Assembly (NCBI GenBank): GCA_021734475.1
Contig: JAIPIU010000004.1
Coordinates: 1-64,000 of the forward strand
DNA: 64,000 nt
Direction: 5' to 3'
Origin: Candidatus Altimarinota bacterium
GTDB taxonomy: Bacteria > Patescibacteriota > Gracilibacteria > Absconditabacterales > Absconditicoccaceae
In this document: in pieces, positions 2,433 through 63,972 of the stretch
Layout of the letters: every line of letters begins with the position of its first letter
Position numbering within the stretch: the stretch's first letter is position 1
Position numbers and translations under genes: made by a program
The notes under the pieces: generated by a model
Databases searched by the model: none
What the model saw: the letters and a program-made list of their open reading frames with translations, nothing else
Told to the model about the DNA's origin: nothing

Positions 2433-2999
2433 TTAGTTAATTTCAAACTCTGGTATAATTTCAGAATTGGGATAGATATTTATTTCTTGTGAGGGAATAG
2501 ATATTTTGATATATGTTTCTTGACTATAGTCGTATCACGTATCTGTGAGCTGATGAACACTACAATATGGTCGATTGGATATAGATTCTACTATCTCATG
2601 ATGAAGTGGATTGTAATTTACATAACTTGTAATTTTATCTAAATCTTCTAGTTCTATCTTTCGAGCTTTGAATCTTCATTTGAAAACAGGTAATCATTTG
2701 ATGCTAGCATTATCTTGGTGACTTCTCTTGAAATACATAGCATAACTAATTTGTATCTTTCTCATAAAATTTGATATATCAAATCATCTCCTGGAATTGA
2801 AAACTACAAAATGAAAATGATCTGGCAAAATACAATAAGAAATTAGTTTGATATGAGGGTATCACATCAAATGGTCGATAGTCTGTAGAATAAATGTCTT
2901 GTAATCGTTTCATGTTTCTCGCAAAATCGTGTTTCAAAAGCTCTTATTCACTATGTGATAGTACATTCATTCTTGAAATTGATCACGTGAATTCCCCAC
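2433..2999 (-). CDS. REP-associated tyrosine transposase (RAYT, Y1/HUH family)
   Basis: 188 residues with TGA as Gly. The N-terminus reads EGMYYHIVNKSFGN, matching the usual start of the Y1_Tnp fold. The HUH motif is present as DHFHFVVFN at about residues 58-66, followed by FMRKIQISYAMYF and VFKGRFKARKIE, all typical of RAYT proteins. RAYTs are single-strand HUH nucleases related to IS200/IS605 TnpA, and they are domesticated or associated with REP palindromes. The start is uncertain: GTG at 2999 or ATG at 2966. No flanking left/right ends of an IS are evident. Together with the abundant intergenic palindromes, this enzyme is the natural candidate for moving them; that link is inference. Confidence 0.85.
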
Positions 3000-7342: not shown

Positions 7343-7660
7343 TTTATAGAAAAAGAAATTAAATTGTATTTAGTATAATATTTTTTTAGAGAAATGCAAT
7401 ATTTGTTGTTTGGACAATAAGAAGACTTTGTCCTCCTTTGAAAAAGGAGGGGTGGTCCGAAGGACAGGAGGATTTATAAACGTTCTTTATGGGGCTTTTC
7501 CCGCCCCAAACCCTAGGACCAGTCTTTTTGACTTGACTTCCCGCTTTGCGGGACAGGCGCCAACACTGGACAAAAAAATCAAGTCGCAAAAAACGACACG
7601 TTTTGCGACAAATTTTCTATTTTTATATTCTTTGTAGTACTAAAATCGTATGTATTGCTA
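7343..7660. other. Repeat-dense intergenic region without a supported gene
   Basis: Contains a family C palindrome (7430-7478), a GGGGC...GCCCC hairpin near 7490, a CCCGCtttGCGGG hairpin near 7540, a GACTTGA / TCAAGTC pair and a GTCGCAAAA / TTTTGCGAC hairpin near 7582-7610. Open frames on either strand simply cross these repeats. Confidence 0.6.
7430..7478. repeat. Palindromic repeat, family C
   Basis: CCTCCTTTgaaAAAGGAGG core followed by GGTGGTCC...GGACAGGAGGATTT, the same layout as the copies at 45897, 60166 and 63901 and as the insertion in pflB at 59243. Confidence 0.75.
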
Positions 7661-45870: not shown

Positions 45871-45896
45871 TATGAAATGTTGAAGTGTTAAAACTT

Positions 45897-45958
45897 GTCC
45901 TCCTTTGGAAAAGGAGGGGGACCCGAGCACCATTACTTGGTGCCGGGTGGAGGATTTA
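45897..45958. repeat. Palindromic repeat, family C
   Basis: TCCTCCTTTggAAAAGGAGG, then CCCGAGCACC ... GGTGCCGGG and GGAGGATTTATA; overlaps the stop codon of the DUF559 gene. Confidence 0.8.
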
Positions 45959-46336
45959 TATTTCTTTTTCTCTTAATCTTATTTGCTCTTGTAAATCTAG
46001 AAATACTCATTCAAGATTTTTTTGAATATCATAATTTGAATACCTTATTGTTTTTATTCAAAAACTTTCTAAAATTTTATTTCTTTTCTCATCATAATCA
46101 ACTGAATAATTATGACTTTCTCAATCTATTTCTATAGCTAATTTTAATTTACCGCAATAAAAATCAAGAATATATGTTGCAATTATTTTTTGTCTAAGAA
46201 ATCTATATCAGGTTTTATTTCATTTTAAGATTAAATTCCAAAATATTCATTCATATTTTGTCATTGTATTTTGACTTCTATTTATTTTTGCAAACTGTTT
46301 TAATTTAGGATTATAATAAATTGCTCAATTGGACAT
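45956..46336 (-). CDS. DUF559 / VSR-like endonuclease-fold protein
   Basis: 126 residues. MTKYEGIFWNLILKGNKTGYRFLRQKIIATYILDFYCGKLKLAIEIDGESH, followed by RNKILESFGIKTIRYSNYDI, is the DUF559 pattern: E, DFYC and EIDG-x-H residues of a PD-(D/E)xK-like fold. The family is widespread near repeats and mobile DNA and is thought to cut DNA, but its role is not established. It is flanked on both sides by family C repeats. Confidence 0.88.
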
Positions 46337-46354
46337 TATTTTAATATATTTATA

Positions 46355-46404
46355 AATCCCCTCCCGCCTACGCGGGTATCCCCTTTTACAAAGGGGAACT
46401 TAGT
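46355..46404. repeat. Palindromic repeat, family C
   Basis: AAATCCCCTCCCGCCTACGCGGG ... CCCCTTTTacAAAGGGG when split into its arms; mirror partner of the copy at 45897 around the DUF559 gene. Confidence 0.75.
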
Positions 46405-52658: not shown

Positions 52659-52754
52659 AAAATTTGAGCTGTATTTTTGGATTTAAATGATTAAAATTTT
52701 AAGTAATAAATTTCGTCTATTTATCAAAGATTTTATTTTTTGTATAATAATCAA

Positions 52755-54215
52755 ATGAAAAAATTACTATTTTTACCACTATTGATATCTATTTTTGGAA
52801 TAGGATTTTTGCGAGCATATGATCAAGAATTGGTTCAAGCATATGATTATGCTTATGATATGGGTATAACGACTATGCCAAATATTAATCAAGCTAATAT
52901 GTATGGTAATTTACAGAGATCTCATATGGCTAAAATGGTAGCAAATTATGCCACAGATGTATTGGGACTTGTGCCAGATACATGAAAAATATGTGAATTT
53001 AGCGATATAGATAATGAAAGTGATGAATTAAAATGATATATTACCAAAGCATGTAGATTATGACTAATGGGAATAGGAATAAGTAAATTTGAGCCCAAAT
53101 GAATAGTTACTAGAGCTCAGTTTGGAACTGTCCTTTCTAGAGCATTACGATGAGATATTTATAATGAATGAAATCCTTATTACGGCAGACACCTAAAAGC
53201 TCTGAGAGCTAAATGAATAATGAATAATATAGATAATCCAAATCTGACTGAAAAAAGATGATATGTAATGCTAATGATGGAAAGAGCTGATGAAAATTAT
53301 GAAGCACCTGAAATTATTGATGAAGAAGATGAAATAAATAATGATCTCGTAGATTTGTCTGATAATCCTCCTAATAGTAATGTAAGCGTGACAGATAAAA
53401 ATATGTATTCAAATATAGTATACGACACACAAGAAGGAGTCAGTTTAAAATTACATTTATTAGTACCTGAAAGATCTGATGGTAAAGATGCTCCATTGTT
53501 ATTAACATTTAGTGCAAAAGAAGTTAAACTATCTGAAAACAGTCTTGATCTACTAGAACAAGAAATGATAGAGAGATGATATGCTATATGAAAAGCTAGT
53601 CTACGTTTCTATGAAGAAGATTCTAAGTTTCCAGATGCTTATGTAGATGCAAAATCTGCCGTAAGATATATCAAAGCCAATGCTTCACAGTATTGAATAA
53701 ATCCTGATAAAATAGCAGTAATGGGTAGTAGTAAAAATGGTTTGATAGCAGCAGCTATATGAACTATGTGAGAAGAAATTCAATATGATATTTGAAAAAA
53801 CTTGAATTATAACAGTAAAGTTGCCGCTGTAATAAATTTTGCATGACATACTGATTTGACTAATTTTTATCAAGATGGTATGGATGATCCTCAAGTAAAA
53901 ATGGATGAAAAAACATATGAAGCAAAAAACCAACAATTTTTATGATGTCCTGCTTTTGAATGTGATGAAACAGAAGCTGCTGCAAGTTCTATAAATTATA
54001 TAGATGAAGAAGATCCTCCTTTTTATATGATGATTGGTAGTGAGGATAATTTAGTTCCCAAAATACAGTTGGAAAGATTCAAAGATAAATGTGATGATGA
54101 ATGAGTAGCTGCTTATTTTGAAGTAGTCGATGGAGCTCCTCACAGTGTAGAAAGATATTTGGAACAAAAACATGTAAATAGATTGGTATCTTTTCTAGTG
54201 GAATATGTAGAATAA
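52755..54215 (+). CDS. SLH-domain surface alpha/beta hydrolase
   Basis: 486 residues. Signal peptide (MKKLLFLPLLISIFGIGFLRA). Residues about 22-170 carry SLH-like repeats (MGITTMPNINQANMYGNLQR; FEPKGIVTRAQFGTVLSRAL), which anchor proteins to the cell surface. The C-terminal 270 residues are an esterase-like hydrolase: LHLLVPERSDG, DAKSAVRYIKANASQYGINPDKIAVMGSSKNG (nucleophile Ser in GSS, with Asn in place of the last Gly), and DGAPHSVERYL (His). TATAAT ends only seven bases before the ATG, so the message may be leaderless. Confidence 0.85.
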
Positions 54216-54236
54216 TTTATTTTATATTTTGAAGAT

Positions 54237-55223
54237 ATGAAAAAATTACTTTTTGTAGCGCTATGAATATCTATTATTTCTGCTGTTATCGTTTTTGCTA
54301 ATATGGATAATATTCAGTATTTTTATTTAGATAAAGATTATGTATGATTAAATAAAATTGAAACAATATGATCTAAAAAAGATAAAGCTATTGAAAAAAA
54401 AATAGACAATACAATTACTCCAAACAATAAATTGGAAATCCCAAATCAATTAAATTTGACAATAAATGGAAATAAATTTTACCCTAATATAAGATACGAT
54501 AAACAAGAATGAATAGACTTGGAATTACACCTTTTGGTACCAAATAGATCTGACGAAAAACCTGCTCCTCTATTATTAACTTTGGTAGCTAAAAAAACTA
54601 AATTATTGGAAAATAATCTTGATTTACTTGAAAAAAAAATGTTGGCTAGATGATATGCTGTATGAAAAGCTAGTCTACGTTATTTTGAAGAAACATCATG
54701 ATATCCAGATGCTTATGTAGATGCTAAATCTGCAGTTAGATTTATCAAAGCTAATGCTTCACAGTATTGAATAAATCCTGATAAAATAGCAGTAATGGGA
54801 AGTAGTAAAAATGGATTATTTGCATCTGCTGTTGGTACTATGGGGAATGAAAATATTTTTGAAATATGAAATAATTTAAGCTTTGATAGTAAAGTTGCGG
54901 CTGTGATTAATTTTGCTGGACCGACTGATTTTATGAAAGATAAAAAAATGGACTGCTATTCTTTTGAATGTGAAGAAATAGATAATCAAGTAAATATAAT
55001 AAGTTATCTAGACAAAAATGATCCTCCTTTTTATATGATGATCGGTAGTGAAGATAGATTAATACCACATGAACAAATGGAGAGATTTAAAAAAAAATGC
55101 GATGAATTATGAGTAGCTGCTTATTATGATATGATAGATGGAGCTCCTCATGGTGTTGCTAAATTTTTGAATAATGATCAAGTATGAAGATTAGTTTCAT
55201 TCCTAGTGAAATATGTAGAATAA
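54237..55223 (+). CDS. Secreted alpha/beta hydrolase, paralogue without SLH domain
   Basis: 328 residues. A signal peptide (LLFVALGISIISAVIVFA) is followed by a short linker and the same esterase-like domain as the preceding gene (KASLRYFEETSGYPDAYVDA; KIAVMGSSKNG; DPPFYMMIGSEDRLIPHEQ; DGAPHGVAKFL). It is a tandem duplicate that lacks the SLH repeats, so it is probably released or anchored differently. 21 bases separate the two. Confidence 0.85.
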
Positions 55224-55300
55224 TTTATTCTATTCTGCTTGATAATTTGATTAGTATAATTAGTATGAAAATAATTTTTACATAGTAATAAAAAATAATA

Positions 55301-56326
55301 ATGAAAAAAAATCTGATTTTATTTTGATTTTTGTCGATTTTTGCTGTGAACTTTTTGTTTGCAGAAAGTAATTATTGAGCAGAATTGGAATGAGCATACA
55401 ACTATGCTTACAATATATGAATAACCACCATGATGCCCATAAGTAATGCAAATATGTATGGTAATTTGATTAGATCTCATATGGCTAAAATGATGTCAAA
55501 CTATGCTACAGAAATTTTGGATTTAGTTCCAAATACTGGGAAAGTTTGTGAGTTTGATGATATAGATGGCGAAAGCGATGAATTGAAATGATATATTATC
55601 AAAGCATGTCAGCTTGATCTGATGTGAGTAGGAATCACAAGTTTTAATCCTAGTGGAAATGTAAGTAGAGCACAGTTTGGAACTGTTCTTTCTAGAGCGA
55701 TATATGGAGATGTAAATAATGGAGGTGATCCATACTATGTAAATCATCTAAATGCTCTAAAGACTGATAATATAATGACAGTAATTGATACCCCAAGTAA
55801 TCTTGAAGTGAGATGATATGTAATGTTGATGATGAAAAGAGCTGATGAATTGATAAATAATCTAAACACATGAGGTATAGTAATAGATCTAACTCCACCA
55901 ACAGCTAATGTAGTTTATTCTACTACTGGAAACACTACTGGTAATGTGACTGCTTATCTGACTGGGCGAAGTGAAAGTATTACTGGTGTAAATACTTATT
56001 CTCATGTATTTGATGAAAATGGTAGTTTTATATTCTATTTTCAAGATCTAGCTGGTAATGCTGGTAGTGTAAGCGCTACAGTTAATCGAATAGATAAAAC
56101 ATCTCCTACAGCTAATATAAATTTGAGTCCTATACAAGCTGATTATACATCATGAAATATAGTAGCAACTCTGACATGATATTCTGAAAATATCACTATA
56201 ACAAATAATGCCGGTTTAAGTAATTATACATTTACTGGTAATGGAAATTTCGTGTTTAATTTTGTAGATGCTGCTGGAAATACCGGTAGTACTACTGCTA
56301 CTGTAAGTTATTGGACTGGAAGTTAA
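55301..56326 (+). CDS. SLH-domain protein with Ig-like repeats
   Basis: 341 residues. Signal peptide, then SLH repeats closely related to those at 52755 (GITTMMPISNANMYGNLIRSHMAKMMSNYATE), then two beta-sandwich repeats starting at about 190 (DLTPPTANVVYSTTGNTTG; DKTSPTANINLSPIQADYTS), each ending in DLAGNAGS / DAAGNTGS, a common bacterial Ig-like motif. Gly in the Ig part is mostly GGT/GGA, lower TGA use than average. Probably an adhesin or S-layer-associated protein. Confidence 0.82.
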
Positions 56327-57864: not shown

Positions 57865-60159
57865 ATGAAAATAGATGTAAGAAATTTTATTTATGATAAT
57901 ATCACTCCCTATGATGGAGATGAAAGTTTTTTGGTTTGACCTAGTGAAAGAACGAAAAAATTATGGGAACAATGTAAGAAACTTTTGGAAAAAGAAAAAA
58001 ATAATGGATGAATATTGGATATAGATACTGAAACTATATCTACAGTTAGCTCTCATCAAGCCTGATATATAGATAAAGATTTGGAGCTTATAGTTGGACT
58101 ACAAACTGATGCTCCACTCAAAAGAGCCATCAAACCTTTTGGATGATATAGAGTAGTAGAAAAAGCTTGTGCTGAAAATGAGAAAGAATTAAGCCCAAAA
58201 GTAAAAGAAATTTTTACTAAATATAGAAAATCACATAATGATGGAATATTCGATGCGTATACTCCTAGTATGTTAACATATAGAAAAACATGAATTCTGA
58301 CCTGACTTCCTGATAATTATTCTAGATGAAGAATTATATGAGATTATAGAAGATTGGCTTTGTATGGTATTGATAACTTGATAGAAGCTAAGGAAGAAGA
58401 TAAGATTAAGATTATAAATCCTCAGTCTGCTTCGCATCCAGCTCCTTTAGAAAAGGAGCACAACTTTGAAATGACTGAAGATGTAATAAGACTTAGAGAA
58501 GAAATAAGTGAACAAATAAAAGCTCTAAAAGAAATAAAAGAAATGGCAATAATGTATGGCTTTGATATTTCTAAGCCAGCTAAAAATGCGACTGAAGCTG
58601 TTCAACGAACATATTTTTGATTTTTAGCAGCGATCAAAGAGCAAGATTGAGCTGCTATGAGTTTGTGAAATGTGAGTAGTTTCTTGGATATTTTTATCGA
58701 AAAGGATTTGAAAGAATGAAAACTGAACGAAGAACAAGCTCAAGAATTAATTGATCAATTTGTAATAAAATTAAGGTTGGTGAGACAACTACGTATGAGT
58801 GAATACAATCAGCTTTTTGCTGGTGATCCGACATGGACAACAGAATCTATATGATGAATATTTCAAGATTGAAAGCATAAAATAACTAAAACATCTTTCA
58901 GATTTTTGCAGACATTGTATAATCTATGAGCTGCTCCAGAGCCTAATTTGACTATTCTTTGGTCAAAAGATTTACCTAAATGATTCAAAAAATTTGCTAC
59001 TAAAGTTTCTATAGATACATCTAGTATACAATATGAAAATGATGATATGATGAGAAAAATCTGATGTACTGATGACTATGGAATTGCCTGTTGTGTATCA
59101 CAGCTAGAAACTTGAAAATGGATGCAATTTTTTGGAGCTAGATGTAATTTAGCTAAAGCATTATTATTGACAATCAATTGATGAAAAGATGAAATAACAT
59201 GAACTCAAATATTGGATGATATAAATAAGATTCCGGATATAAATAAATCCTCCACCACTTCGTGGTCCCCCTCCTTTTCCAAAGGAGGACAGGAAGAGAT
59301 TTTGAAGTATGAAGAAGTATGGGAGGATTATAAAAAAGTTTTGTCTGAACTTGCTAGAGAATATGTTAATACAATGAATATAATCCACTATATGCATGAT
59401 AAATATTATTATGAAAAATCTCAGATGGCTTTTATGGATAGTATAGTCAAAAGATATATGGCTTTTGGTGCTGCATGATTAAGCGTAGTAGCAGATTCTC
59501 TATCAGCAATCAAGTTTGCAAAAGTAAAAGTAATTAGATATGAAAACTGACTTAGTAAAGATTTTGAAATCGAATGAGATTTTCCTAAATATGGAAATGA
59601 TAACGATGAAGCAGATCAGATTGCTGTAGATGTAGTAAAATATTTTATAGAAGAACTCAGAAAACATAAAATATATCGTGATGCTGAAGCTAGTCTATCG
59701 ATACTAACTATAACCGCTAATGTAGTTTATGGACATAAAACATGAGCTACTCCGGACTGAAGAAAAGCTTGAGAGCCATTTGCTCCGGGTGCTAATCCAA
59801 TGCATGGTAGAGATAGTTCATGAGCGATTGCATCACTAAACTCTGTAGCAAAAATATCCTATGAAGATGCAAAAGACTGAATATCAAATACATTCTCTGT
59901 AGTACCTATTACACTTGGAATCAATACAGATGAACAGACTAGTAATCTAGTAGATATGCTTGATGGATATTTCGCTAAATGATGACATCATTTGAATGTA
60001 AATGTTTTGAATAGAGATACATTATTGGATGCAATGGAACATCCTGAGCTGTATCCACAGTTGACTATTAGAGTTTCGTGATATGCTGTTAATTTTGTAA
60101 AATTAAGTAGAGAGCAACAAGAGGAAGTAATTGCGAGAACTTTTCATGAAAGAATGTAG
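57865..60159 (+). CDS. pflB: Pyruvate formate-lyase with two in-frame repeat insertions
   Basis: 764 residues. The active-site Cys pair is in YGIACCVSQ and the C-terminal glycyl-radical loop is IRVSGYAVNF, whose radical Gly is a TGA codon. [43 protein letters not shown] and [15 protein letters not shown]-like segments are typical. It cleaves pyruvate with CoA to acetyl-CoA and formate. Residues about 183-200 ([16 protein letters not shown]) and 459-476 ([17 protein letters not shown]) are translated family C repeats. PflA follows two genes downstream. Confidence 0.96.
58415..58463. repeat. Family C repeat inserted in frame in pflB (first)
   Basis: AAATCCTCagtcTGCTTCGCA followed by CTCCTTTagaAAAGGAGCACAA; same order of blocks as the intergenic copy at 63901 (AAATCCTCctgTGCTTCGCA ... 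CTCCTTTT). Encodes about 16 residues. Confidence 0.75.
59243..59292. repeat. Family C repeat inserted in frame in pflB (second)
   Basis: AAATCCTCCACCACTTCGTGG followed by CTCCTTTTccAAAGGAGGACA when split into its arms; near-identical to the intergenic copy after pflB at about 60228-60275. Encodes about 17 residues. Confidence 0.85.
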
Positions 60160-60165
60160 AACAAA

Positions 60166-60277
60166 AGTTCCCCTTTGGAAAAGGGGACACCCCGAATTTT
60201 CGGGGAGGGGATTTATAAAACTTTTTTAAATCCTCCCCCACTTCGTGGTTCTCCTCCTTTTCCAAAGGAGGACAAGT
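60166..60277. repeat. Family C palindromes, two in series
   Basis: CCCCTTTggAAAAGGGG with an ACCCCGAAttTTCGGGG hairpin, then AAATCCTCCCCCACTTCGTGG and CTCCTTTTccAAAGGAGGACAAG. Confidence 0.85.
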
Positions 60278-63891: not shown

Positions 63892-63900
63892 AAGAAAATT

Positions 63901-63972
63901 AAATCCTCCTGTGCTTCGCACCACCCCTCCTTTTCCCTTTATTCTTCAGGACAAGCCAAAGGAGGACAAGTT
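63901..63972. repeat. Palindromic repeat, family C
   Basis: AAATCCTCCTGTGCTTCGCA, CCCCTCCTTTTCC ... CCAAAGGAGGACAAG, with an internal insertion of about 20 bases. Confidence 0.75.

Follow-up and report, generated by a model that had tools for sequence, protein, structure and literature searches.

The pyruvate formate-lyase gene (pflB) of this genome contains two copies of a palindromic repeat, family C, that are read in frame as part of the enzyme, and the same repeat, in inverted pairs, brackets genes for a DUF559 nuclease, one of which lies in the same window (the whole stretch of 64,000 nucleotides that was analyzed). We regard it as practically certain that the translated insertions are themselves real. 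On balance, we think it fairly probable that family C consists of nonautonomous ends, similar to the RPEs of Rickettsia, that are spread by a DUF559 nuclease element and tolerated as in-frame protein. The original prediction had likened the repeats in pflB to RPEs, as translated and protein-tolerated palindromes in a lineage that reads UGA as Gly, and this much is upheld; it was incomplete in that pflB is not special and that the DUF559 partner in the same window was missed. The genome holding the window (G000) is a draft of 1.17 Mb in 8 contigs, and it falls in the same family as genomes named Candidatus Absconditabacteria or candidate division SR1. The comparison used one genome per species, including two congeners (G001 and G002) and a class relative (G041), and reading frames were translated with NCBI code 25 (UGA=Gly). 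Apart from the features collected in Table 1, the window holds several long direct repeats at 52738-55609 (75-76% identical, ~1-2.5 kb apart), which indicate putative tandem paralogous genes.

The pflB frame includes 33 TGA=Gly codons, and its product matches PF02901 (E 9e-198) and PF01228 and keeps the active-site residues Cys409/Cys410 and the radical Gly739. The codon for this Gly, in the motif RVSGYAV, is itself TGA (window positions 60079-60081); the activity of PflB therefore depends on the reassigned codon, because the catalytic glycyl-radical residue is encoded by it. Relative to G001, the gene has a dN/dS of ~0.12 (Nei-Gojobori), with a dS that is near 1.

Table 1. Features of the window discussed in the text
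Feature	Positions	Strand	Remarks
pflB, pyruvate formate-lyase	57865-60159	+	764 aa, single open frame, code 25
Family C copy 1, translated in pflB	58414-58465	+	TCAG/GGAGCAC subfamily; read AAT CCT CAG...
Family C copy 2, translated in pflB	59243-59294	+	TCC/GGAGGAC subfamily; read AAA TCC TCC...
Inverted family C doublet	60163-60277		60163-60216 (-) and 60226-60277 (+), separated by 9 nt; immediately 3' of pflB
Complete DUF559 element	45893-46403	-	nuclease gene flanked by family C in inverted orientation, 45893-45959 (-) and 46352-46403 (+)
DUF559 (PF04480) PD-(D/E)XK/Vsr-like nuclease coding region	45980-46300	-	E 2e-25; motif DFYC...EIDGxxH kept
Y1 (IS200/REP-type) transposase-like gene	2613-2969	-	candidate mobilizer under a rival reading
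Family C copy, solo	7426-7477	-	crossed by short open frames only
Family C copy	63899-63971	+	extra insert (TTCCCTTTATTCTTCAGGACAAGCC) in second hairpin loop

The two inserts, of about 15-18 residues each, had been described as in-frame, stop-free copies of an intergenic repeat. When the whole genome is searched with a 52-position covariance model of the family (R1), whose training copies include both pflB inserts, copy 1 is returned at E 1.4e-9 and copy 2 at E 6.3e-13, and both are also found by an independent hairpin-core pattern, which has 14 sites as compared with 0 for the reversed control. The near-identical intergenic copy that had been placed just 3' of pflB is there as the plus-strand half of the doublet in Table 1, where it shares 94% identity with insert 2 across 48 nt, and the minus-strand half is a second intergenic copy that had not been listed. 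PflB was found in 16 of the 59 genomes searched, and both insert stretches are absent from all 14 of the PFLs outside the genus (726-738 aa versus 764), so that these relatives do not carry the same residues, a finding that would have refuted the original prediction. Among the best 80 PFLs of named genomes, the span is at most 2253 nt versus 2292 in G000. When mapped on a PFL structure, as had been suggested, the AlphaFold model of PflB (pTM 0.78) matches the fold of E. coli PFL with TM 0.87-0.88, and its confidence is very low (pLDDT <50) at residues 188-201 and 459-476, which correspond to the two inserts, and also at six other short segments. The residues before insert 2 (IPD/IPAA) are similar to how family A begins (ATTCCGG); a family A remnant is not claimable at this place because relatives carry IPKL there.

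G001 is the sole congener with pflB, and its PflB is ~80% identical to that of G000. Both loops are filled with family C in this species too, with other subfamilies and reading frames: the TCAG subfamily, read NPQSAS..., is found at site 1 in G000 and site 2 in G001, the TCC subfamily, read KSS..., is found at site 2 in G000 and site 1 in G001, and the insert positions are offset by a few codons. The simplest reading of the two sequences is that the same tolerant loops would have been filled by independent insertions in each species. Occupation of both loops in two species, along with the stability of the hairpins, might also be expected if the inserts had been domesticated under positive selection as mRNA hairpins (for stability or pausing) or as enzyme-modifying peptides; however, at each site the two species have peptides of different sequence and frame, which are predicted to be disordered, and we consider such a role highly improbable. 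Hardly credible at all is an artifact, in which pflB would be a decaying pseudogene or the product of an assembly error. The draft state of the genome would allow for it, but the gene is one 764-codon open frame with conserved catalytic residues and the low dN/dS given above, and the independent assembly of the congener has the same two loops occupied.

The genome-wide search for translated repeats proposed with the original prediction shows that at least 9 of the ~30 family C copies in G000 are translated: two each in pflB and rimO and one each in rsmI, ruvB, murF, leuS, and fmt (a yidD-fmt fusion). The same is true of 7 of the ~27 copies in G001, with two in pflB and one each in ackA, mutS, lepA, rluA, and a YgjP-like gene. 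A copy was counted as translated when a long code 25 frame crosses it with a recognizable enzyme on both sides; host families were confirmed with Pfam where scanned, and the names rsmI, mutS, ackA, and ruvB come from PDB matches or sequence reading. Family C is translated from both strands and in several frames. PDB homologues of RuvB, AckA, and MutS have a gap at the family C insert, and the ruvB site is empty in both congeners; in the RuvB of G004, the loop that holds family C in G000 has instead a translated palindrome of a different family (GTCATTGCGAACGCAGTGAAGCAATC). The host genes are under purifying selection, with dN/dS values of 0.04-0.13 for pflB, ruvB, rimO, and mnmA; the RimO alignment leaves out the G005 row, which was in the wrong frame. 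The hairpins of several copies hold nested small palindromes, and one copy in G000 (C2:88249-88308) itself lies within a repeat of family A (GACTCCGGCCGCAAA...TGCCGGAATGAC). An Rfam search gave a spurious weak miRNA match only.

In-frame TGA occurs in 7 of the 16 translated copies of G000 and G001. With code 25, 110 of 180 frames are open in G000, up from 95, and 83 of 162 in G001, up from 62. The reassigned stop codon thereby leaves more frames open to the translation of selfish DNA. It is helpful and not essential, because neither pflB insert uses TGA. The class relative G041 has no in-frame TGA there, yet it carries in-frame copies as well as an in-frame DUF559. Three zinc-ribbon-like proteins of that genome share one translated hairpin peptide, KKSSFLKE(D/N)LGGFK.

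Family C is associated with DUF559 genes. In G000, inverted copies of family C bracket three of the five DUF559 genes (the element in Table 1, C4:103653-104179, and C1:114081-114655), and the same arrangement is found in G002 and G015. Across six genomes, family C pairs no more than 150 nt apart are oriented (-,+) in 25 cases, (+,-) in 2, and on the same strand in 0, and at 151-600 nt the orientation is (-,+) in 7 of 9 pairs, 5 of those 7 (300-500 nt apart) holding DUF559. The orientation of the ends is therefore fixed, and what separates them is either ~10 nt or the nuclease gene. Of 15 DUF559 loci, 7 are flanked on each side by a GC-rich hairpin within 150 nt, versus 0 of 1191 control positions. 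All 8 genomes of the family that have family C also have DUF559, as compared with 3 of the 13 without it (Fisher p 0.001, an optimistic value because the genomes are related). The family C unit measures 40-100 nt; lengths of 100-140 nt are seen in the inverted doublets alone, and their terminal inverted ends are those of the full-length DUF559 elements in the genome. The doublet just 3' of pflB looks like a deletion derivative of such an element, with the gene missing. Inspection of 13 elements by eye revealed no target-site duplication, within-species empty sites being unavailable for comparison.

Whole DUF559 nucleases also reside in frame inside host proteins. RimO of G001 has a stop-free, in-frame insert of ~150 codons, a palindrome-flanked DUF559, at the loop that carries family C in G000. 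In-frame DUF559 is found in the MnmA of four genomes (G000, G004, G018, and G048) and elsewhere in Elp3-like proteins (G005 and G041), PrmC (G000), Fmt (G015), and LeuRS (G019). Both cases in G000, PrmC (C1:95344-95658) and MnmA (C3:51990-52298), are whole and palindrome-flanked. Pfam splits the host domain of MnmA around DUF559 and, for four fusions, detects host and nuclease (DUF559/MTES_1575) domains only, with no Hint/intein domain. The MnmA loop is 31-37 aa long in most genomes without an insert, 49-63 aa when it holds a repeat only, and 166-220 aa with the nuclease; it is empty in G001 and G002 (35 aa), repeat-only in G019 and G005, and filled with DUF559 in G000, and different palindrome families insert in it. 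The AlphaFold model of G000 MnmA-DUF559 (mean pLDDT 84.7) has an intact MnmA with TM 0.87-0.89 to PDB MnmA/TrmU structures and a well-folded extra domain at 147-251, joined by low-confidence linkers (pLDDT <50) at 130-144 and 258-264 that correspond to the palindromes. The host folds are thus predicted to be intact.

In the DUF559 tree, the nuclease of G000 MnmA has as its nearest relative that of G000 PrmC (support 0.75), and the MnmA insertions are scattered over at least three places of the tree; the element therefore probably moved between genes and hit the MnmA loop repeatedly. The in-frame copies form clades other than the family C-bracketed ones, some with a different palindrome family at their ends, and almost every member of the alignment retains the motif DF...ExD...H. 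Other composite proteins were seen as well. In G045, a MiaA-like tRNA dimethylallyltransferase is preceded by a DUF559 fused to it in frame; the LeuRS of G000 (C8:175889) has a NUDIX domain within the editing region besides its translated family C copy, and that of G019 has DUF559 together with further inserted domains in the same region.

We propose that family C would be both the terminal inverted repeat and the nonautonomous derivative of a small DUF559-encoding mobile element, which would occur in three forms: the whole element of ~0.5 kb (end, DUF559, inverted end), a gene-less inverted doublet, and a solo end of ~50 nt. That the movement is the work of the DUF559 protein is our inference, as is the descent of solo ends from whole elements. 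The element would copy itself to new sites, coding sequences included, possibly by the nuclease opening the target DNA and the element being copied in, as in homing, or alternatively by hairpin ends moving as single strands; gene-less derivatives would arise afterwards. In coding DNA, purifying selection would spare only in-frame, loop-sited copies, and because only such frame-open copies survive, ends and even a whole nuclease would come to be translated within a host enzyme without splicing. The two inserts of PflB would then be solo ends retained by this selection. It counts against the account that solo ends are common, whereas movement in pairs is expected of a nuclease element, that target-site duplications are not visible, and that the in-frame DUF559 copies belong to other clades than the bracketed ones. 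The loop hotspots could also reflect mere tolerance, dS is close to saturation, and with one genome per species neither a transposition intermediate nor a polymorphism was observed. A broader form of the proposal, to which we give slightly less than even credence, is that these are splice-free homing elements, in which a palindrome-ended DUF559 gene jumps between conserved genes and stays as an in-frame domain of essential enzymes, and in which the ends that lack the gene spread in the form of translated repeats.

The first candidate for the mobilizer was a Y1 (RAYT/IS200-like) transposase, which would act in trans on family C as a REP/REPIN sequence, with DUF559 as a passenger that had landed between two REPs. 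Y1_Tnp genes are present in the window (Table 1) and at C4:122945, and the inverted doublets resemble REPINs (PMC3116915). However, RAYTs normally adjoin their REPs, and the nine Y1 loci checked have no family C above noise within 1.5 kb (one weak match, 13.8 bits, E 0.08), which weakens this candidate. Moreover, G005 has ~20 copies and no Y1_Tnp, and the co-occurrence of Y1 with family C (5 of 8 versus 2 of 13, p 0.056, again optimistic for related genomes) is weaker than that of DUF559; we consider this explanation unlikely. We also doubt a scheme of two separate parasites in which DUF559 and family C occupy the same tolerated sites, with DUF559 targeting palindromes by preference and the palindromes spreading by another route (e.g., hairpin-based recombination or template switching). 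The finding of different palindrome families in the same RuvB and MnmA loops, as well as of palindromes nested in one another, would fit such a scheme, but the ends that flank DUF559 have one fixed orientation and spacing, unlike what random insertion beside a repeat would give.

In this lineage, the translated repeats are accompanied by a candidate enzyme gene that is bracketed by the same ends, and because the MnmA loop is empty, repeat-only, or complete in related genomes, the origin of translated repeats becomes testable. The fusions point to whole nuclease domains being tolerated, apparently without splicing, in tRNA-modification enzymes. It has been known since 2000 that Rickettsia carries protein-coding palindromes, and to our knowledge no mobilizer has been described for them; splice-free homing elements, if general, would supply the missing mobilizer for RPE-like coding palindromes. 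In the literature searched, with most subscription journals outside its coverage, we found no description of translated palindromes for a UGA=Gly lineage, as the original prediction had supposed, no paper tying DUF559 to palindromes, and no report of translated palindromes with a DUF559 element or of a complete DUF559 within housekeeping enzymes.

Family C resembles the RPEs of Rickettsia and their Wolbachia counterparts in that palindromes lie in frame in conserved genes and also between genes. RPE orthologues can bear different repeat groups at one site (PMC3767692), and an RPE host enzyme can stay active, as reviewed for Gmk (PMC2229807); experimental support for RPE spread is not given in PMC2229807, PMC3767692, or PMC10969869. 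RPE units are 100-150 bp long with no known mobilizer, whereas the ends of family C measure ~50 nt, have a nuclease gene linked to them, and are translated from either strand and in several frames, in a lineage with UGA=Gly. With REP/REPIN-RAYT systems, family C shares small GC-rich hairpins, inverted doublets with short spacers, solo remnants, and a genome-encoded candidate enzyme. The enzyme beside it is DUF559 and not an HUH/Y1 transposase, however, and its gene is multicopy; REPs are extragenic, in contrast to the 9 of ~30 copies in frame within G000 genes, and a RAYT adjoins its cognate REPs, unlike the Y1 genes here. MITEs such as RUP, NEMIS, and ERIC are likewise nonautonomous inverted-repeat elements found beside a full-length relative, but the partner of family C is not a DDE transposase, and no target-site duplication is visible.

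Homing endonucleases of inteins and group I introns offer another parallel, in that a nuclease gene enters conserved housekeeping genes repeatedly at one site. They differ in that DUF559 stays in the host protein, its ends are palindromes, and a Hint/intein domain is lacking; the insert needs no intron because the frame runs through it. Caulobacter VsrA belongs to the same Pfam family, PF04480, and is a solitary gene with a suggested role in mismatch repair (PMC12907096), whereas the DUF559 described here is a repeat-bracketed, multisite element. Family C is therefore distinct from RPEs by length, from REP-RAYT systems by association and location, and from inteins by domain content.
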